Virus record (IMG/VR): IMGVR_UViG_3300037247_000797
Span: 1 to 49,442 of that record
From: a virus
Direction: 5' to 3' (one strand)
Length of the DNA stretch: 49,442 bases
The translations under genes were made by a program, and so were the position numbers. The notes under the pieces are model-generated. The model did not search any database and was not told where the DNA came from. It saw only the letters and a list, made by a program, of their open reading frames with translations. Position 1 is the stretch's first letter. Every line of letters begins with the position of its first letter. Of this stretch, positions 2,729-18,594 are shown one piece after another.

Positions 2729-3168
2729 AGCTCAACAGAAATACCTGGCACTATCGCTGGTACGCCTACTGGCTGGCGAACGGACGGGGCACCGCTCCAG
2801 CCTACCAAGAGAATTTGTGCCACTACATGCAGGTACTATTCTTCTGGGCGCCGGCGACATGGATCGATCAGCACACGTCTTGGGACTGGGGAGTGGTATT
2901 TCCCGTCGTCTTCTTGGGGGGAGCAGCACTCTATTTACTTGGCTTTGGTGTCTACCTCCTCGTGCTGGTAGCGATGGCACATCTAACGGCGTTCCTGGCG
3001 GGCATTGGGACATTCGCTGGCTCGATGGCCTCTATTGGGCTGCTTGTTCTCATCGTAAGGACGCTGCAAGGGAAGCACTTAGAGATTCCAGGCACTATCA
3101 AGCTGGTGGGTAGCTACGCGATTGCCAAGAAGCGCCGCATCTGTCCGTTCATCGAGTTCGAGGGTTAG
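2725..3168 (+). CDS. Hypothetical integral membrane protein
   Basis: A 147-residue protein with an aromatic, basic N-terminal third and two or three long hydrophobic segments between about residues 50 and 115 (Leu/Val/Ala/Gly rich), then a basic C-terminal tail with KKRR. It should lie in the host inner membrane. No conserved family motif is visible. It sits directly upstream of RtcB and far from the lysis genes, so a holin role is not favoured. Confidence 0.6.
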   Translation: MKLNRNTWHYRWYAYWLANGRGTAPAYQENLCHYMQVLFFWAPATWIDQHTSWDWGVVFPVVFLGGAALYLLGFGVYLLVLVAMAHLTAFLAGIGTFAGSMASIGLLVLIVRTLQGKHLEIPGTIKLVGSYAIAKKRRICPFIEFEG

Positions 3169-3172
3169 AGCT

Positions 3173-4345
3173 ATGTTTGTCCTAAATCCAGAGGAAGACA
3201 AGGGCGCAACAGCGCGCCTACCCATCAAGGTGTGGGGCAGTTCACTCGTAGAAGACAACGTGAGAGGGCAGCTTCTTGACCTAGCCAACCATCCTCTTGC
3301 CCGTAAGTGGGTCTGTGCTATGCCTGACTACCATCTGGGCTATGGGATGCCTATTGGGGGCGTGCTGGCCACCAGAGGAGGCGTGGTGCCAAACGCTGTG
3401 GGGGTGGACATTGGCTGTGGGATGATTGCCGAGCGTCTGACCATCCCGGCGGACGGCCTAGACCGGGCCGAACTGGAAGCCCTCCGCCTCGCCATACACG
3501 AACGGGTGCCTGTAGGGTTTAACCGTCATCTGAAACCTCAGGAGTTGCCGCGACCAACCGTGTTCCCAAATAAGATGACCATTGTTCGACAGCATTTTGA
3601 GCGAGCGTCCTACCAGTTGGGCACCCTTGGTGGGGGCAACCACTTCATTGAACTGCAAAAGTGTGAGGAGGATGGCCGCCTCTGGGTGATGCTTCATTCC
3701 GGCAGTCGGAACGTAGGCAAGCAAGTCTGCGACCACTACAGCAAGGTGGCGAAGAAGTACATGGAGGCGTTCCACGTCGACGTTGCTCCCGACCTGGCCT
3801 TTCTACCCACATCAGTGCCGGAGCACCACCAGTATCTGGAGGAGATGCGCTGGTGCATGGCGTTCGCAGAGGCCAGCCGCAGAGCCATGCTCGATGCCGT
3901 CCACGCGGCATTCAAGGCTGTGCTAGGCATTGACCCCATAATCGACCTGACGGTTGATACCCACCACAACTTCGCCGCAATGGAACATCACTATGGCGAG
4001 AACCTGATGATCCACCGGAAGGGGGCCGTCAGGGCTACTGGCCTCGTGACGATCCCCGGGTCGATGGGTACCGCCAGCTACATTGGTGAAGGGCAGACAC
4101 CCAGGGAGTCCTTCAATACTTGCGCTCATGGCGCCGGCCGCGTGATGGGTAGAAAGGTGGCGAATCGTACCATCACCCACGAGCAGGCGCTTGATTCAAT
4201 GTCTCATGTGGTCTATGGTGTACGGGAAGGACAGTACGATGAGATGCCCGCCGCGTACAAGGACATTGACGACGTGATGGCGGCTCAGGCCGACCTAGTA
4301 AAGCCGCTCTACAGGCTGGTTCCGCTAATGGTGGTGAAGGGGTAG
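3173..4345 (+). CDS. rtcB: RtcB-type RNA ligase
   Basis: A 390-residue protein, slightly shorter than bacterial RtcB. Family landmarks in order: MPDYHLGYGMPIGGVLAT, GVDIGCGM (metal-binding Asp and Cys), LGGGNHFIE, HSGSRNVGK, a His-rich HHNFA segment, PGSMGTASYIGEG and CAHGAGRVMGR, whose His is the GMP-accepting residue in the family. RtcB joins 2',3'-cyclic phosphate or 3'-phosphate ends to 5'-OH ends, using GTP and Mn. Start ATG 3173 is chosen because upstream in-frame codons overlap the membrane-protein gene and read as shadow. Followed after 3 bases by a Fic gene. A plausible role is repair of host or phage tRNAs cleaved by defence nucleases (inference). Confidence 0.95.
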   Translation: MFVLNPEEDKGATARLPIKVWGSSLVEDNVRGQLLDLANHPLARKWVCAMPDYHLGYGMPIGGVLATRGGVVPNAVGVDIGCGMIAERLTIPADGLDRAELEALRLAIHERVPVGFNRHLKPQELPRPTVFPNKMTIVRQHFERASYQLGTLGGGNHFIELQKCEEDGRLWVMLHSGSRNVGKQVCDHYSKVAKKYMEAFHVDVAPDLAFLPTSVPEHHQYLEEMRWCMAFAEASRRAMLDAVHAAFKAVLGIDPIIDLTVDTHHNFAAMEHHYGENLMIHRKGAVRATGLVTIPGSMGTASYIGEGQTPRESFNTCAHGAGRVMGRKVANRTITHEQALDSMSHVVYGVREGQYDEMPAAYKDIDDVMAAQADLVKPLYRLVPLMVVKG

Positions 4346-11101: not shown

Positions 11102-11288
11102 TGGGTGTGAATACTGTCTTGGCTCTCTTCCTACAGTGGTCATAACAGAAAAGGCCAGTATCTCCCAACGTATCTGCCGTGCCTGCATCCTAGAAGCCCT
11201 CCAGGCAATCGAAGAACCGGGCGAGTATCCGGCCATCATTGAGAGACGCGATGACGCCCTAGAGATTGTTCGGAAAGTGTACGAATGA
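11064..11288 (+). CDS. Small zinc-knuckle protein
   Basis: A 74-residue protein whose start lies 38 bases inside the recombinase gene, preceded by AAAGGGAGG. It has CEYC near residue 15 and CRAC near residue 39, a typical two-knuckle zinc site, followed by an acidic helix. The stop overlaps the start of the Rad50-like gene. It may be a small accessory of the recombination proteins (context only). Confidence 0.6.
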   Translation: MTTQKSVHLKIGNGCEYCLGSLPTVVITEKASISQRICRACILEALQAIEEPGEYPAIIERRDDALEIVRKVYE

Positions 11289-12262
11289 GCTACTCTCCTA
11301 TCAAGACGCTCAGGATCAAGAACTTCCAGTCTCTTGAGGACATTACCATTGACCTCGGGCCGCTTACCGTTTTGGTGGGGCAGGGGGATGTAGGAAAGAG
11401 TGCCGTCCTACGTGCCCTACGGGCGGCCTGCTTGAACGATGGAAATGACGACGACATCCGACACGGATCGAAGCGGTGTACCGTTGACCTGATCTTCGCT
11501 GATGGGGTAAACATCACTTGGTGGAAAGACAAAGGCAAGGGCGGTTGCTATGGCTTTCACTCTGAAGACGAGTACACAGAGTACCTCAAGACGGGCGGAC
11601 AAGTACCAGACGCTATCGCTGAGTACTTGGGCATCGGGCTCATCAAGGTAGACGCCACTACCGAGTTGACTCCTCAATTGAGTGACCAGTTCGATGCTCC
11701 TTTCATTGTCTGTGAGACTGGTAGTAAACGCGCACGCATCCTGGGCAAGGCTACCCGCCTTGATGTAGTGGTCTCTGCCCAGATGCAGTGCAAGAAGGAG
11801 CTTGATGCTGCCAAGCGGGGAGCAGCGGAGGCCGCCACTGGCCTTGCTGGCGTTGAGGGGAGCCTCGCCGCTCTTCCAGACTACGAAGCCATTGAGGCTG
11901 AGGTAGGTCAGGCGGAGACGAACCTCGAGACTCTTGCTGACAGCATCCTTCTGGCCGGCCGGCTTCAGGAGCTGGCCGACCAGATGGCTGAGGTGAGCTC
12001 CAGAGCCACGGCTATAGATGTGGCCCCCCTCCAGGCTCAGTTGAGGGAGGCGGGGGAGAAGCTGGACACAGCCGAGCGCGTCCAGCTCCTGGCCCAGAAA
12101 ATCCCAGACATGACCAGGACAGCAGAAGGCTTCGTTAAACGCCGTGCTGACCACCAGGAGGCCATAGAGAGCTTCCAAGCGCAGCTTGTCTCCGCATGTG
12201 AGGAGGCTGGCGCCTGTGTTGAGTGTGGTGGCCTGCTGAGCCACAAGGAGTGTGCAGGATGA
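11285..12262 (+). CDS. Rad50/SbcC-like ATPase, N-terminal half ending at the zinc hook
   Basis: A 325-residue protein. It opens with the SMC/Rad50 N-terminus (LRIKNFQSLEDITIDLGPL), Walker A GQGDVGKS (about residues 32-39) and a Q-loop-like QLSDQFDAPF. From about residue 170 it becomes a coiled coil. It ends with CVECGG and a further Cys 15 residues before the stop, exactly where a Rad50 zinc hook would be. The returning coil, ABC signature and Walker B are missing here but appear in ORFs at 14278-14535 and 14510-15172. It should pair with those and with the Mre11-like nuclease at 13097 in DNA-end processing. Family full length is usually one polypeptide of 500-1300 residues. Confidence 0.88.
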   Translation: MSYSPIKTLRIKNFQSLEDITIDLGPLTVLVGQGDVGKSAVLRALRAACLNDGNDDDIRHGSKRCTVDLIFADGVNITWWKDKGKGGCYGFHSEDEYTEYLKTGGQVPDAIAEYLGIGLIKVDATTELTPQLSDQFDAPFIVCETGSKRARILGKATRLDVVVSAQMQCKKELDAAKRGAAEAATGLAGVEGSLAALPDYEAIEAEVGQAETNLETLADSILLAGRLQELADQMAEVSSRATAIDVAPLQAQLREAGEKLDTAERVQLLAQKIPDMTRTAEGFVKRRADHQEAIESFQAQLVSACEEAGACVECGGLLSHKECAG

Positions 12263-12459
12263 ATACGCCTAACGAAATCATTGAAGGAGTGGTCGAGGCT
12301 GCTCTTGCTACGTACCTCCGCTATCGTGCCCCCTTCTCTTCAGAAGGAGAACCCTGTGAGGTCACGTGTGGTGGCTTTCGAGCTAAGGTATACGGTGGTG
12401 GAGACGCAACCATTCGTATTGTTATCTATGAGGAACCTGATCTAGAGGTGTTGCCATGA
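12259..12459 (+). CDS. Small hypothetical protein
   Basis: A 66-residue protein starting at ATG 12259, which overlaps the Rad50-like stop as ATGA; upstream in-frame codons are inside that gene. It looks like a small alpha/beta domain (helix EIIEGVVEAALATYLRYR, then strands), with two Cys in a CEVTC spacing. Its stop overlaps the next start. Function unknown. Confidence 0.58.
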   Translation: MNTPNEIIEGVVEAALATYLRYRAPFSSEGEPCEVTCGGFRAKVYGGGDATIRIVIYEEPDLEVLP

Positions 12460-12623
12460 GCATAGAGAAGGGCCAGATTACGTCATTGCGCCGAGTACTC
12501 ATACGGATTCGAGATTCCTATTGTCCAAATCAGCATACTTGCGACAGTCCCGCCTGCCGTGATATCCCTCAGCTAGCCGCCGACGCCCTGAGAGAGGATG
12601 CAAGGTCGAGGTTGAAAGCATGA
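12456..12623 (+). CDS. Small hypothetical protein (55 residues)
   Basis: Read from ATG 12456, which overlaps the preceding stop by 4 bases, to TGA 12621. The product is basic at first (MSIEKGQITSLRRVLIRIRD) and has CPNQHTCDSPAC in the middle, a Cys/His cluster compatible with zinc, then an acidic helix. The overlap at both ends with neighbouring frames supports translation. Confidence 0.5.
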   Translation: MSIEKGQITSLRRVLIRIRDSYCPNQHTCDSPACRDIPQLAADALREDARSRLKA

Positions 12624-12757
12624 GCTACGATGAGATGTTGGACAAACTAAACCGTCTTGCTTTGGATGCACGTATATGGTTGTTTGCTCCCCCGCTTCAT
12701 GAAGCACAACGCAGAGCAAAATTGCTCAGGGAGCTAATAGAGGACAATCCAGAATGA
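12620..12757 (+). CDS. Small helical hypothetical protein (45 residues)
   Basis: Starts at ATG 12620 overlapping the previous stop (ATGA) and ends at TGA 12755, again overlapping the next ATG. The product is amphipathic and helical (MSYDEMLDKLNRLALDAR ... AKLLRELIEDNPE). No Cys, no recognised motif. Overlaps at both ends and a protein-like composition are the only evidence. Confidence 0.45.
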   Translation: MSYDEMLDKLNRLALDARIWLFAPPLHEAQRRAKLLRELIEDNPE

Positions 12758-12900
12758 AGTGTTTTCTACAGGGGTGCCCCACCAACACACAAGGAAAATG
12801 CCGAGCCTGTACGCGCCCAGTATGCTCGCGCCATCGACAGTACATGGGAACCTCCCTACTTTCAGGACGTAGCTATGTCTGTAAGAGGTGCCTTGGATGA
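12754..12900 (+). CDS. Small zinc-binding protein (48 residues), B-box/AN1-like Cys pattern
   Basis: Starts at ATG 12754 sharing ATGA with the previous stop and ends at TGA 12898. Six or seven Cys and a His are arranged as CFLQGC, CRACTRPVC...H and CKRC at the C-terminus, filling most of the protein. The CxxCxxxxC...H...CxxC order recalls cross-brace zinc domains such as AN1 or B-box, though the match is by eye only. No function assigned. Confidence 0.5.
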   Translation: MKCFLQGCPTNTQGKCRACTRPVCSRHRQYMGTSLLSGRSYVCKRCLG

Positions 12901-13100
12901 GTCAACAGTGGCCTCCAACAGTCGTGCTAGCACCGTGGCCAGACCCCAGTTCATATCAAGAGCATGGCTCCGAGTATCGAGTAGTAAGACTAATCAACAC
13001 AGCACGTCCCGTAGTAGGAACCTATCTCGAGGAGAGGGAAGTGCTCGAGATGTGCCACAGTGGCTCAATCAATGTCGAGATAATTAGAGATTCAGGATGA
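12897..13100 (+). CDS. Small hypothetical protein (67 residues)
   Basis: ATG 12897 overlaps the preceding stop as ATGA and is preferred to the slightly earlier in-frame start at 12888. The protein is mixed alpha/beta (EYRVVRLINTARPVVGTYLEE ... GSINVEIIRDSG) with no recognised motif. Its stop overlaps the start of the Mre11-like nuclease, so it is the last of five small genes placed between the Rad50-like N-half and the nuclease. Confidence 0.55.
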   Translation: MSQQWPPTVVLAPWPDPSSYQEHGSEYRVVRLINTARPVVGTYLEEREVLEMCHSGSINVEIIRDSG

Positions 13101-14083
13101 GCAAGCTACTCTTCTTTGGTGACCTGCACGCGGCGGACAAGGCCCCCTCAGGGCGAGTCGATGACTACGCCCGCACCGTCATCGACAAGCTGGACAGCAT
13201 CTCTCTCCTTTGTGAGAAGAACAATGTCGACCACTGCTTTTCTACGGGGGACATTTTCCACATCAAGCAGCCTAATAGGGTCAGCCACGCCTTGACACAG
13301 GAACTCATCTCTACCTTCAATCAGTTTCCCTGCCTAGTTCGCGTCGTTGCTGGCAACCACGATCTCGGGTCGGATGGGTTGGAGAGTCTATCTCGCCAAC
13401 CTCTAGGGACACTCGAACGGGCCGGAGCTGTGTCCGTCTTACGCTCTGTAATGGAAACCGATGACTTCTGGCTCATCCCTCGACCCTACAACGCTGTGGC
13501 AGAAGGTGTACACGACGGAGAGACTGCCCCAGCATATTACTCCCTCACCGAAGAGGAGAAGAACCTCATCGCTGGAGTGGCACCATTACCTGTCATCGGC
13601 CTGGCCCATGCATCTATCCTTGGCCCGGGGGACAAACGGCCGTACCCCTACGTCAATGTCGATCAGATACCCGGCATTGAGGAGTACGACCTGCTCGTGT
13701 CGGGCCACCTACATGAGTGCCTTGGCGTGATGCAGATAGGGAAGACCCTCTTTGCCAACCCGGGCTCCATCATGAGGACGCAACGGAACCTCTCCAACTA
13801 CGCCCGCACGGTGGAGGTGCTGATCGTCACTGTCGATAGTGGGGACGTGACGGTAGAGGAAGTGCCTCTCCCTGGTGTGGCGCCAGCACTCGAGGTGTTC
13901 GGTAAGCGAGAGCCTGTAGACAGCCCCGACCTACCTGACGATGAGATCAACCAGTTCATCACCATGCTGGGCGAGGGCCTCCGCGCTGACGAACTGACGA
14001 TCCCCGAGCTACTGGCCGACATGGGGGACATCCCGCCCGACGTGAAGGCGGAAGTGCAGAGACTATTGGAGGCAGCATCATGA
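13097..14083 (+). CDS. Mre11/SbcD-like DNA repair nuclease
   Basis: A 328-residue calcineurin-like metallophosphoesterase. Metal-binding motifs in order: GDLHA (residues 8-12), GDIFH (about 51), GNHD (about 96), LAHAS (about 174) and GHLHE (about 202), as in SbcD/Mre11. A C-terminal helical region (ELTIPELLADMGD ... VQRLLEAAS) would serve as the Rad50-binding part. With the split Rad50-like ATPase it should process DNA ends or hairpins in recombination-dependent replication, like T4 gp47/gp46. ATG overlaps the upstream stop by 4 bases and its stop overlaps the next start. Confidence 0.9.
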   Translation: MSKLLFFGDLHAADKAPSGRVDDYARTVIDKLDSISLLCEKNNVDHCFSTGDIFHIKQPNRVSHALTQELISTFNQFPCLVRVVAGNHDLGSDGLESLSRQPLGTLERAGAVSVLRSVMETDDFWLIPRPYNAVAEGVHDGETAPAYYSLTEEEKNLIAGVAPLPVIGLAHASILGPGDKRPYPYVNVDQIPGIEEYDLLVSGHLHECLGVMQIGKTLFANPGSIMRTQRNLSNYARTVEVLIVTVDSGDVTVEEVPLPGVAPALEVFGKREPVDSPDLPDDEINQFITMLGEGLRADELTIPELLADMGDIPPDVKAEVQRLLEAAS

Positions 14084-14265
14084 GCATTCCTACAAAAGAC
14101 GAGCTTGCTCTTCTTGCTAAAGAAGAAGACGATAGTGACGACGAAGGGTTTCATGCAGAGTACGACACTGCTTTAGAGGTCAAACTACACGAGCTTGACC
14201 CCGAGTGGATGGAAGCAATGGAGCAATACTACCAGTCTAGTGGATTGTCTCGCTGGTATGCATAA
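14080..14265 (+). CDS. Small acidic hypothetical protein
   Basis: A 61-residue, strongly acidic protein (EEDDSDDEG near residue 16) starting at ATGA shared with the nuclease stop. Its C-terminal half is helical and aromatic (EWMEAMEQYYQSSGLSRWYA). No motif recognised. It is sandwiched between the Mre11-like nuclease and the returning coil of the Rad50-like protein, so an accessory role in that complex is possible but unsupported. Confidence 0.55.
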   Translation: MSIPTKDELALLAKEEDDSDDEGFHAEYDTALEVKLHELDPEWMEAMEQYYQSSGLSRWYA

Positions 14266-14277
14266 GGAGGCAGTATT

Positions 14278-14535
14278 ATGAGCGTAACACCCACCATCCA
14301 GCAGTTGAGGAAGGACATTGAGTCCGCCCAAGCCGACCTCACCCGTGTAGAGGCACAGCAAGAGGGGCAGGAGACAGAGCTCACTGGCCGGAAGGATGAG
14401 GTTCGAGAGTTGGGGTTCGACCCAGACGAGAACCTCCACACAGTGGCCGGCCAAATCATGGAGGACGTACATGCGGCTGTTGCCGGCGTCCAGAAAGAGG
14501 TAGAGACAGTTGTCGGACGTACTGCAAGTAGTTAA
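14278..14535 (+). CDS. Rad50-like returning coiled coil, separate ORF
   Basis: An 85-residue protein with GAGGCAGT upstream of ATG 14278. It is almost entirely heptad-like (IQQLRKDIESAQADLTRVEAQQEGQETEL, written here only as far as the pattern matters: about residues 7-35 and 55-80), as expected of a Rad50/SbcC returning arm. It ends 26 bases inside the next gene, which is in the +1 frame relative to it and continues the coil. It is either a third piece of the split Rad50 or joined to the next ORF by frameshifting; no classical slippery site was seen. Confidence 0.55.
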   Translation: MSVTPTIQQLRKDIESAQADLTRVEAQQEGQETELTGRKDEVRELGFDPDENLHTVAGQIMEDVHAAVAGVQKEVETVVGRTASS

Positions 14536-15172
14536 CTCCCTCCAGCAGGAGCTGAACGGCTGCCGCCAGCGGTGCCATGAGTATCGCGGGCAGGCTGAGC
14601 TTCTTGGTACTCAGAAAGCTACCCTAGAGGAGCGCAAGGGTACTGAGGAGGCGCAGGAGGCGCTGTCTGGTAAGGCCCTAGAGGTGCTGCGGCGCCTAGA
14701 GGAGACCTGGAGAGGGAAGTACGAGGCAGGGCTAGCGGCCTTAGGCAGTCAGGGACTGAACACAGTCTTCACCTCCGACAACTATGAGGTGCTGCTGGAG
14801 TCGAGCGTCAAGCGCGGCGTGTCTAACCTCGACATTGCTCTTGTCAAGAATGGTCAGCGTGTGCGGCTCAAGGGGGGTTCTGGTGGCTCAGTGATGCAGG
14901 TCTTGGCCTACCTACTCAGGCACCTGACGACAACTTCACACCACCCTGAACTGCGCCGATTGGAGGCGCTCGACGAACCCTTCTCGGCGGTAGCACAGGA
15001 GCAGCGGCCGGCCCTCTGCGCGTTGATCAAGGAGATGACGCAACGGTTGGGATTCCAATTTTTGTTTTCATCGCACGAGGACGAGCTGGCGGACGTTGCT
15101 GATGTCGTCGTTCTCATCCACCCAGGCGGGCGGGTGGAGCAGTTGAAATCTAGCCAGGAGGAGCGAGCATGA
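14510..15172 (+). CDS. Rad50/SbcC-like ATPase, C-terminal half
   Basis: A 220-residue protein. A coiled coil covers about residues 5-70. Then come an ABC signature-like LKGGSGGSVMQVLAYLLR (about residues 118-135), Walker B and D-loop LEALDEPFSAV (about 148-158) and the H-loop FLFSSHEDE (about 185). Together with Walker A in the ORF at 11285 this makes one complete Rad50 head. TTG 14510 is the start because GAGGTA lies 8-14 bases upstream and the frame before it is not coil-like. The stop overlaps the RuvC-like start (ATGA). Confidence 0.88.
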   Translation: MSDVLQVVNSLQQELNGCRQRCHEYRGQAELLGTQKATLEERKGTEEAQEALSGKALEVLRRLEETWRGKYEAGLAALGSQGLNTVFTSDNYEVLLESSVKRGVSNLDIALVKNGQRVRLKGGSGGSVMQVLAYLLRHLTTTSHHPELRRLEALDEPFSAVAQEQRPALCALIKEMTQRLGFQFLFSSHEDELADVADVVVLIHPGGRVEQLKSSQEERA

Positions 15173-15648: not shown

Positions 15649-15968
15649 AAATGGGCTATATGGGGCAGGCCGTTGAGGAGATGGCGGCGGCCCTAAAAGA
15701 TATGGACACTAGCGTACTTTGGCACTTCCATGCCTTAGCCAGCGGATCGATTATTCTTGTTCATCCTGATAAAAAGACACGACTTTGTAAGAACGGCCGC
15801 TGCGCCCGTGTTCTAATCCACCAGATGGAAGTGTTAAGCCCCCTCTCAGACCGGCGCGAGATTCTCTCATCAGATGGGAGTGGTAGAAATATAGTGCCCG
15901 ATTTGGTAGCACTGAATAAACAAGCAGAAGGACATGGGCTTACCATTGACCCAGATTCGAGACTGTAG
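15645..15968 (+). CDS. Hypothetical protein
   Basis: A 107-residue protein. It starts at ATGA-type overlap with the RuvC-like stop. The N-terminus is helical (QAVEEMAAALKDMD), followed by strands (SVLWHFHALASGSIILVHPD) and a single CKNGRC pair near residue 48. No family recognised. It overlaps the UDG-polymerase start by 35 bases. Confidence 0.55.
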   Translation: MKMGYMGQAVEEMAAALKDMDTSVLWHFHALASGSIILVHPDKKTRLCKNGRCARVLIHQMEVLSPLSDRREILSSDGSGRNIVPDLVALNKQAEGHGLTIDPDSRL

Positions 15969-18594
15969 CCTCTGCCCTGCCCTAACTAAGGGGCGGAAAT
16001 GCATCGTCAATGGTGCCGGTGTCAACGACGCTAAGATCGCCTTCGTGGGCGAGGGGCCGGGGCAGGTAGAGGATGAGAAGCGCCGGCCGTTCATGGGGAA
16101 GGCCGGCCGCGTGCTGAAGGTCATTGAGTGGGCGGCCGGCATCAACCAGTACAAGGTTTACCACACCAACGCCACGCGCTGTTGGGGTGGAAGGAACCCC
16201 ACAGCCACCGAGATAGACGCTTGCCACGACTATCTTATCCAAGAGTTGCGTGAACTCAACCCGACCGTAATTGTGGCTCTAGGCGCTGCCGCGCTCCGCT
16301 CCCTTTATCGCCCCAACATTACCGTCGGCTCAGTGATGGGCTTCACCTTGTACAACGACGAACTCCCCGGTACTCCCATCATCCCGACCTACCACCCCTC
16401 CTACATCATGCGTAAGAACTGGGGTAAGGTGGCCCTCGTGCTCGCCCACTTCCGTAAGGCCAAGCGTATTGCTGACGCGGGCGGGCTTGTGGAGACGATG
16501 GGCTCATACATGGGTGTCACTACCCTAGAGGAACTACGGGGTCTTCGAGACTACCTACTCGGGCCGGCCGTAGACATTATCGCCGTCGACACAGAGACCT
16601 GCGGATTGAGTTGGATGGATTCAGAGCTCCTCTGCGTGAGCTTCTCCGGCGAGAGGGGTGTGGGCTACAGCGTCCCCATCCTGCACCGGGGAACCCGCAC
16701 GGTCATGAAGCTGAAGGGGAGGGGCAAGAATCGTGAGAAGTATCCTGTAGATGAGTGGTACCCTGTCCGCTACTGGAGTGAGGAGGATGAGCCAGAGGCA
16801 ATAGCCATCATCGAGGAAATCCTCAGCTCAGACAAGCCTAAGTCAGGCCAGAACATTGGGTTCGACATCCGTATGCTCGAGCGTAGCCCCGACGAGGAGG
16901 CAGTAGCGGTCAACACTGCTCTGGGCTTTCATGTCAACAACGTAAAGCACTGCACCAAGATGTTGGCTGGACTGCTGTCGGAGGTGAACCCCGCTAGCCT
17001 GAGCGTCCTGACTGCCTACCACACGGACATCCCTTACTATGAAGGGGAGTTGTCTCACATGAAGTCTCGAATGTGGGAGGTAGAGGACAAGAAGCTGTGG
17101 GTGTACGGCGGCGGCGACGTAGACTCGGTGTCGACCTTGGTGCCTGAACTTCTCCCCCGCGTCCAGGAGGAGGGAACGGAGTGGGTCTACGAGAACATCT
17201 CCATCCCCCTCATCCGCTGCGCTACAAGGTTGGAGGAGCGGGGGGTCTACATCGACCGAGAACACTTCGACAAGCTCTGTCGCTACTATACAGACCAGTT
17301 GAGGACTAGGACAAGGGAGCTGACCAAGGCTATAGGACATGAGGTAGAGTCCCCCTCCTACTATAAGAATGTGCAGGAGTTGGTCTTCAAGGAGCTAGAC
17401 CTACCTCTGACGGCCCAGGCCACAAAGGGGGCGCTCAAGGACTGCCGGAAGTGTAAGAAGGAGAGAGCCCCCTGCTCTGCGCCTCATGCCTCTACCGGCG
17501 CCGATGATCTTGAGGAGCTGAATGTGCGCTCGCCCCATCCCGTCCTCCCCATCCTTATTGACATCCGTCACCTCGAGAAGCTCAAGGGCACCTACCTCGA
17601 TGGAGGTAAGAAGGATGAAGGCGGGTTTAAGATACACATCAGAAAGGACAAGCGCATCCACGCCCGTTGGAATGCCTCCCGTGCCGCAACGGGCCGCTTC
17701 TCCTGCGAAGAACCGAACATGATGAACCCCCCCAAGAATGTGAAGGTTCAAAGCGATGCGTATGACCTTCACACTGACGACGCCATCCGCCAGATGTTCG
17801 TCGCTCCTCCAGGGTACGGCTTGCTCAGTGCTGACTGGAGCCAGCTCGAGGTGTGGATGTTAGCGTATGAAACTGGAGACCCCACCCTTTTAGGTATCCT
17901 CTTGGGCGGAAACGATGTCCATACCTTCGTGGCGAGAAAGTTGTGTGAGTTGGGCGTATCACACCTCTTTCCTAAAGCGTCATGGGAGCCTGACCTCGAC
18001 GATAGTAAGTGGAGAGCGAAGTATGAGGCTCTACGAGATAAGGCCAAGGTGTTCACCTTCGGCTTAATCTACCTCATTTCGGAGCAAGGTTGTGCCGACC
18101 GACTTGGATGTAGTCTGGAAGAGGTCAAACTTATATTTCAAGCATTCCTCACTAGCGTATTCCCTACTCTTCCCAATTACCAACTCAAGATTCGGGAGGA
18201 AGTGTTGACGACATATGGGGTGACCAACAAGTTCGGCCGGCGCCGGCACTTCCCTGAGGTGCCTATCCTAGCGGCTTTGAAGTATCGGACAGACCTAGAG
18301 GCTGTGATACGGGTGGCTAATAACTTCCCTCTCCAATCGGGCGGACATGACCTCCACTCACTTGCTCACATCGCAACTGAGGCAGAGCTCTCCTCCTGGA
18401 TACAGCCAGTACAAGAGATGCACGACTCTTTGTTGTGCTATACTCCACTAGAGCGCTTAGACGAGGCGGCGGTGGCTATCAAGACCCTATGGGAGGGCAT
18501 CGCTTTGAATACCATCCTTCCTTCAGGAGAGCGACTTGATTGGCACATTCCCGTGGATGTAAAATGTGGACAGAGCTTCGGAGATTTGAGGTAA
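15934..18594 (+). CDS. Uracil-DNA glycosylase / 3'-5' exonuclease / family A DNA polymerase fusion
   Basis: An 886-residue three-domain protein. Residues 1-185 resemble a family 4-type UDG: Cys 11, 14, 83 and 97 (Fe-S ligand pattern), GEGPGQVEDEKRRPFMGKAG and the HPS motif at 154. A DEDDy exonuclease follows: AVDTET (219), NIGFD (about 307) and YGGGD (about 391). The polymerase has motif A ADWSQLEVW (Asp about 634), motif B RDKAKVFTFGLIY (about 700; Phe at the nucleotide-selectivity site) and motif C MHDS (about 830). A Cys cluster inserted near residue 507-517 is not usual for the family. Motif C has Ser where most members have Glu. It should be the replicative polymerase; the UDG part may check uracil. 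Confidence 0.92.
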   Translation: MGLPLTQIRDCSLCPALTKGRKCIVNGAGVNDAKIAFVGEGPGQVEDEKRRPFMGKAGRVLKVIEWAAGINQYKVYHTNATRCWGGRNPTATEIDACHDYLIQELRELNPTVIVALGAAALRSLYRPNITVGSVMGFTLYNDELPGTPIIPTYHPSYIMRKNWGKVALVLAHFRKAKRIADAGGLVETMGSYMGVTTLEELRGLRDYLLGPAVDIIAVDTETCGLSWMDSELLCVSFSGERGVGYSVPILHRGTRTVMKLKGRGKNREKYPVDEWYPVRYWSEEDEPEAIAIIEEILSSDKPKSGQNIGFDIRMLERSPDEEAVAVNTALGFHVNNVKHCTKMLAGLLSEVNPASLSVLTAYHTDIPYYEGELSHMKSRMWEVEDKKLWVYGGGDVDSVSTLVPELLPRVQEEGTEWVYENISIPLIRCATRLEERGVYIDREHFDKLCRYYTDQLRTRTRELTKAIGHEVESPSYYKNVQELVFKELDLPLTAQATKGALKDCRKCKKERAPCSAPHASTGADDLEELNVRSPHPVLPILIDIRHLEKLKGTYLDGGKKDEGGFKIHIRKDKRIHARWNASRAATGRFSCEEPNMMNPPKNVKVQSDAYDLHTDDAIRQMFVAPPGYGLLSADWSQLEVWMLAYETGDPTLLGILLGGNDVHTFVARKLCELGVSHLFPKASWEPDLDDSKWRAKYEALRDKAKVFTFGLIYLISEQGCADRLGCSLEEVKLIFQAFLTSVFPTLPNYQLKIREEVLTTYGVTNKFGRRRHFPEVPILAALKYRTDLEAVIRVANNFPLQSGGHDLHSLAHIATEAELSSWIQPVQEMHDSLLCYTPLERLDEAAVAIKTLWEGIALNTILPSGERLDWHIPVDVKCGQSFGDLR

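Follow-up and report, generated by a model that had tools for sequence, protein, structure and literature searches.

A probable naturally split Rad50 encoded with Mre11 in phages and plasmids

Genes and motifs of the locus

The stretch of DNA analyzed here, hereafter the window, is a phage fragment, the whole of the 49,442-base IMG/VR virus record IMGVR_UViG_3300037247_000797, and it carries the two halves of Rad50, the long-armed ATPase that drives the Mre11-Rad50 machinery of DNA break repair, as separate genes, together with a gene for an Mre11-like nuclease and a small gene for a third chain, M (Table 1). An earlier sequence-only reading of the window had described these N-half, Mre11-like, coil and C-half open reading frames (ORFs), and all four were found where it had placed them. 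The Walker A, Q-loop, CVECGG, signature, Walker B and H-loop motifs that it had assigned are likewise all present. Its count to the N-half stop needs correction, however: the chain ends nine residues past CVECGG (residues 311-316), the 15 originally given being the count from the first cysteine. The C-terminal tail of the N-half reads CVECGGLLSHKECAG, and its C-x2-C-x5-H-x2-C pattern is kept throughout the close clade of the window N-half. The M gene is preceded by AAGGAGG, and the C-half has a TTG start in a frame other than that of M, the open frames of the two overlapping by 26 nt. The ABC signature of the C-halves is a GG-rich variant (KGGSGGS/SGGG) and not LSGGE.

Table 1. Features of the split Rad50 locus in the window
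Feature	Position	Strand	Remarks
Rad50 N-half (N chain), 325 amino acids	11285..12262	+	ATPase lobe I, outgoing helical arm, C-terminal zinc hook
Walker A GQGDVGKS, residues G32-S39 (LVGQGDVGKS in context)	11378..11401	+	G32, G37, K38 and S39 invariant in 57 diverse N-halves
Q-loop glutamine Q135	11687..11689	+	invariant in 57 diverse N-halves
Zinc hook C311-x2-C314, then H320 and C323 (CVECGGLLSHKEC)	12215..12253	+	C311 and C314 invariant in 57 N-halves
Mre11/SbcD-like calcineurin-family nuclease, 328 amino acids	13097..14083	+	between N-half and M; Pfam Metallophos 2.8e-8
M chain, 85 amino acids	14278..14535	+	two helices around an LGFDPD turn; proposed distal returning arm
Rad50 C-half (C chain), 220 amino acids	14510..15172	+	proximal returning arm and lobe II motifs (signature, Walker B, H-loop)
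ABC signature equivalent KGGSGGS	14870..14890	+	GG core 97-98% conserved in 96 C-halves
Walker B region RLEALDEPF	14957..14983	+	D and E 100% conserved in 96 C-halves
H-loop His189 (SSHE)	15074..15076	+	86% conserved in 96 C-halves

The feature set of Rad50/SbcC is divided between two of these chains, with that of lobe I (Walker A, Q-loop) in the N chain and that of lobe II (ABC signature, Walker B, H-loop) in the C chain. The N-half matches Pfam AAA_23 (4.5e-9) and AAA_15 (5.6e-10) as well as PHROG 16465 (5.8e-26), and a profile of N-halves finds Methanocaldococcus jannaschii Rad50 with E = 3e-9. The C-half of the window matches PHROG 15167 (6.5e-9), and the C-half profile aligns to the C-half of Pyrococcus furiosus Rad50 over 177 profile positions (E = 4e-16), including the signature, Walker B and H-loop regions. 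These scores place the likeness to Rad50 well beyond chance and, as the two halves match the N- and C-halves of one protein, they exclude the alternative that the halves derive from unrelated families. The Mre11-like protein matches the SbcD-like PHROG 100 in addition to its Pfam family. An AlphaFold2 model of the N-half built with 57 diverse relatives (mean predicted local distance difference test score, pLDDT, 89) shows lobe I followed by helices 159-196, 200-241 and 247-308 and then the hook, and its best PDB matches are the N-halves of P. furiosus Rad50; with only 10 close relatives the model was poor (pLDDT 60). Judged by their periodicity, 3.4-3.6 in the N-arm, M and the C-arm (3.5-3.6 in M), the arms appear to be coil-like.

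Conservation of the split layout in phages and plasmids

Relatives of the window N-half were found on seven contigs, and the full-length ones are 52-66% identical to it and share its end point. Six of these contigs were followed through the module, and all six encode N, Mre11, M and C as separate genes; in several, M is parted from C by other ORFs or by gaps. The C-halves of close relatives are 54-70% identical to that of the window. Single-sequence queries with the window C-half or Mre11 retrieved no relatives, and alignment queries were needed to find them. This wider recruitment gave 79 loci by way of the N-half and 80 by way of the C-half, the latter out of 325 IMG/VR stretches with C-half relatives. 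On the N side, the CxxC lies within 40 residues of the N-chain end in 87 of 91 loci, a separate C ORF is present in 70 of the 91, and no chain joins N to C in any of them. The C side gives the same picture: the C ORF is at most 291 amino acids long, the CxxC stands within 20 residues of the end in 66 of 67 N chains, M and Mre11 were found in 75 and 71 of the 80 loci, respectively, and again no fused N-then-C chain occurs (0/80). As these loci were recruited by similarity to the split family, the absence of fused chains describes that family and not all Rad50 proteins. In 59 of 70 loci the M gene is the immediate 5' neighbor of the C-half. Among 96 non-redundant four-gene loci the order is N-Mre11-M-C in 92, Mre11-N-M-C in three and N-M-C-Mre11 in one, and N, M and C therefore follow the order of an intact Rad50 in every one of the 96. 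Three separate polypeptides, as first read from the window, is correct, and the split is a widespread and conserved architecture rather than an oddity of one phage. A single chain is customary for Rad50 rather than diagnostic of it, and we therefore speak of a split variant and not of an ordinary member.

The residues that matter for catalysis and for the hook have been kept. Across 57 N-halves, which range from about 20 to 66% identity to that of the window, the invariant columns are those of Walker A, the Q-loop glutamine, both hook cysteines and a few fold residues; the Walker B Asp-Glu pair is equally constant in the C-halves, and the Asp, His and GNHD metal-site columns of the Mre11 phosphoesterase are invariant or nearly so in the 96 loci. 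In close pairs the ratio of nonsynonymous to synonymous substitution (dN/dS) of each of the four genes is about 0.1-0.3 wherever dS could be estimated, and purifying selection acts on all of them. The N chains end a median of 6.5 residues past the CxxC, and 11 of 96 tails are C2HC-like. We also considered a split intein at the break and rejected it, since this short tail leaves no room for one.

The same division is found in named phages and plasmids. Bacillus phage vB_BboS-125 encodes N (471 amino acids), M (78) and C (211) plus an unannotated Mre11, the four genes are contiguous in Microcystis phage Mvi-JY20, and they are separate on the Bacillus velezensis p3 and Alkaliphilus pB6464 plasmids. 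On Geobacillus and Paenibacillus plasmids Mre11 is fused to the N-half and is followed by small genes at the M and C positions; the C profile scores in all three plasmids and the M profile in Geobacillus and, weakly, in Paenibacillus thiaminolyticus. A Brevibacillus plasmid has the same annotated layout. On Cetobacterium somerae plasmid p3 (L229, 4498-5593) the N-half lies in two overlapping ORFs of 252 and 123 amino acids, the second ending in CPTCNKEF, and this Rad50 may be in four pieces or may be frameshifted; on this plasmid an IscB gene separates Mre11 from the C-half. The single-chain 509-residue AAA ATPase of Paenibacillus larvae phages (Fern and others) was set aside as another family: it is about 22% identical to the N-half and lies beside a RecT-like gene, and no Mre11 is annotated in the stretch examined around it.

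A further arrangement, on proteobacterial megaplasmids, joins the pieces in reverse, as a circular permutation. Relatives of an Alteromonas ORF with the C-half before the N-half in one chain are present in 22 plasmid records, and in the five plasmids examined (Alteromonas, two Pseudomonas, Bosea and Variovorax) the C-N chain ends at the CxxC; our scan of viral sequences found no such chain. This permuted protein is a Rad50 circle cut at the hook and joined at the head, and in every arrangement, split or permuted, the chain is thus open at the hook. A small gene precedes it, with an M score in Bosea (7e-6) and Pseudomonas Leaf58 (0.002) and a likeness to M by eye only in Alteromonas, so that in the permuted forms too M and C-N are separate genes. 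The gene after the C-N chain is Mre11-like, unmistakably so in Bosea and Variovorax but with only weak support in the Pseudomonas and Alteromonas plasmids. In Alteromonas macleodii plasmid pKD01 (L230, 5556-6332) the likeness to Mre11 is weak (E = 0.012) and the phosphoesterase motifs look degenerate, and from its sequence the product is possibly an inactive Mre11.

Proposed assembly and competing readings

Taken together, these observations make it likely that the genes of the window encode a naturally split Rad50, in three chains, of a phage Mre11-Rad50 nuclease. The N chain would contribute lobe I and the outgoing arm and would terminate in the zinc hook, and the C chain would contribute lobe II together with the base of the returning arm, so that each ABC ATPase head would consist of one N and one C chain and two heads would sandwich ATP. 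Mre11 would dock at the arm base as in canonical Mre11-Rad50, two N-chain hooks would share one zinc, and M would most likely fill the distal returning arm beside the hook, with the tip held non-covalently. The unity of the parts is supported by the fusions of Mre11 to N with separate M and C, and by the permuted C-N chains that end at the hook. A head built from two chains has a precedent by analogy in the head structures of P. furiosus Rad50 (1f2t A/B, 1ii8 A/B, 3qkr A/B), whose entries have N and C as separate chains, although these are laboratory constructs and not a natural gene organization. The view of the sequence-only reading that each half would meet the other at its tip needs to be revised, as a conserved third chain lies between them and the arms are unequal in families with long N-halves.

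The neighbors of the module in the window are a DnaB-like helicase, a primase, a UvsX-like recombinase, a RuvC-like Holliday junction resolvase and a family A DNA polymerase, and its setting is therefore a replication-recombination cluster. The complex probably serves recombination-dependent phage replication by processing DNA ends, as T4 gp46/47 does, and the recombinase, resolvase and polymerase among these neighbors fit this role.

Several observations weigh against this assembly. The N-arm of 158 residues in the window is close to the approximately 168 residues of M plus the C-arm, but across families the N-arm varies from 118 to 354 residues and M plus the C-arm only from 140 to 177, with a Spearman correlation of -0.13. 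Given this lack of correlation in length, the two sides of the arm cannot simply pair antiparallel from end to end in all families, and we have dropped the arm-length accounting, which fits the window, as proof that the N-arm pairs with M and the C-arm. Where the N-arm is long, some of it must double back on itself or pair in some other way, and this is the main point left unexplained. In addition, the genes lie far apart in Tunturi_5 and Magritte, and the N-half of Microbacterium phage Magritte has no CxxC.

Two side observations concern these unusual forms. The N-halves of 471-528 amino acids (L001, L003, L102) show by eye what appear to be repeated helical segments of about 40-60 residues between breaks, and the arm of these proteins may fold back on itself. 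In Magritte (L002, 4998-6050; L025, 284-934) the N, Mre11 and C genes are tens of kb apart on the record and an M gene was not clearly identified; a hookless version of Rad50 is possible there.

The mismatch of the arms leaves room for M as an accessory chain, and it is possible, if doubtful, that M is an accessory or regulatory coiled-coil subunit, such as a hook cap or an adaptor, of a Rad50 split in two chains with a shorter, free-ended return arm. That M has a gene to itself also in the plasmids with a joined C-N chain, that the conserved turn between its two helices could make it a stand-alone hairpin, and that the length of M plus the C-arm does not follow that of the N-arm all favor such a role, while the position of M just 5' of C in colinear order in all 96 four-gene loci and the agreement of the arm lengths in the window speak for M as part of the arm. 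Similarly, the CxxC...HxxC of the window clade could be a self-contained C2HC zinc site within one chain, so that the hook would not dimerize and the arms would be free-ended. The pattern is kept across the close clade and recurs in the C2HC-like tails counted above, but most families have the CxxC alone and end about six residues later, so that two more ligands would be needed from another chain, and we consider this reading unlikely.

That the split is an artefact, either a continuous gene broken by sequencing or assembly error or M and C rejoined by programmed frameshifting, is suggested by the overlap of M and C in different frames in the window and by open frames that overlap in 67 of 96 loci. 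However, a distance of more than 100 nt separates M and C in 20 of the 96, the split is kept in the 52-66% identical relatives, several of which place ORFs or long gaps between these two genes, the division is the same in finished plasmids and in the genomes of isolated phages, and M is separate from C-N in the permuted versions. These findings refute both forms of the idea for the split family, including the frameshift or deletion raised in the sequence-only reading, and leave an artefact very improbable. Fragmentation of phage genes is common, and the pieces could be decaying remnants of a lost Rad50, yet low dN/dS in all four genes, invariant catalytic and hook residues and an occurrence on hundreds of contigs refute this and make it extremely improbable.

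Other genes of the window are recorded here for their own sake. The polymerase, of 886 amino acids (15934-18594), has an N-terminal uracil-DNA glycosylase domain (residues 31-162, E = 1e-25), and most close relatives have a downstream ORF that is much like it in length and in its start. Between the N and Mre11 genes, at 12754-12900, is a 48-residue Cys/His-rich protein, probably a small zinc-finger protein, with a clear homologue in the same place in locus L007. An RtcB-like tRNA splicing ligase is encoded at 3122-4345 (PHROG 1075, 2e-114).

Relation to known systems and meaning for Rad50

The proposed complex resembles Rad50, SbcC and T4 gp46 in its two-lobe ABC head at the ends of arms that appear to be coil-like, the CxxC hook at the tip, the Mre11-type partner (Mre11, SbcD or gp47) and the recombination neighborhood. 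It differs from canonical Rad50, a single polypeptide that carries its hook within a short hairpin, in that it consists of three chains with the break at the hook or of a permuted C-N chain with its end there. An Mre11-Rad50 fusion of Bacillus phage 0305phi8-36 (A7KV18), which is the second-best viral structural match of the window N-half, was reported in 2011 as being without one SbcC P-loop segment (PMC3175470). That report did not find the missing half, and the plasmid fusions of Mre11 to N described here, with separate M and C adjoining, offer an explanation of the incomplete A7KV18. In jumbo phages, DNA polymerase III alpha and RNA polymerase beta/beta' are split into separate, sometimes distant genes (PMC7824862), and there likewise what is normally one chain comes from several genes, although in a different enzyme; the available part of the same survey gives SbcC/SbcD as near-universal in jumbo phages and mentions no split. 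The full-text literature searched, outside of which lie most subscription papers and bioRxiv preprints, yielded no account of a Rad50 that is split, in three chains or permuted, and the split Rad50 is widespread and has apparently gone unrecognized so far. PHROG lists the N, C and M chains as three unrelated families, 16465 ('exonuclease'), 15167 ('ATPase') and 18563 (unknown function), with nothing linking them into one protein; these separately annotated families are now reunited into one likely machine.

There is debate over where the ring of Mre11-Rad50 opens, at the hook or at the heads, and the hook has been argued to be a constitutive dimerization point that an SMC hinge can replace (PMC6969161). 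The split Rad50 bears on this role of the hook. We would suggest, tentatively, that there is a branch of phage and plasmid Rad50 with an open arm tip, in which the chain ends at the hook and an exchangeable M completes the arm, and in which the hook would be a releasable and possibly regulated gate or latch formed from N chains alone, not a fixed hairpin. The cut exactly at the hook in many phages, together with a permuted form that has the same cut, suggests that the tip can do without covalent continuity but not without the hook cysteines. With short parts that can be expressed separately, the role of the hook becomes directly testable.

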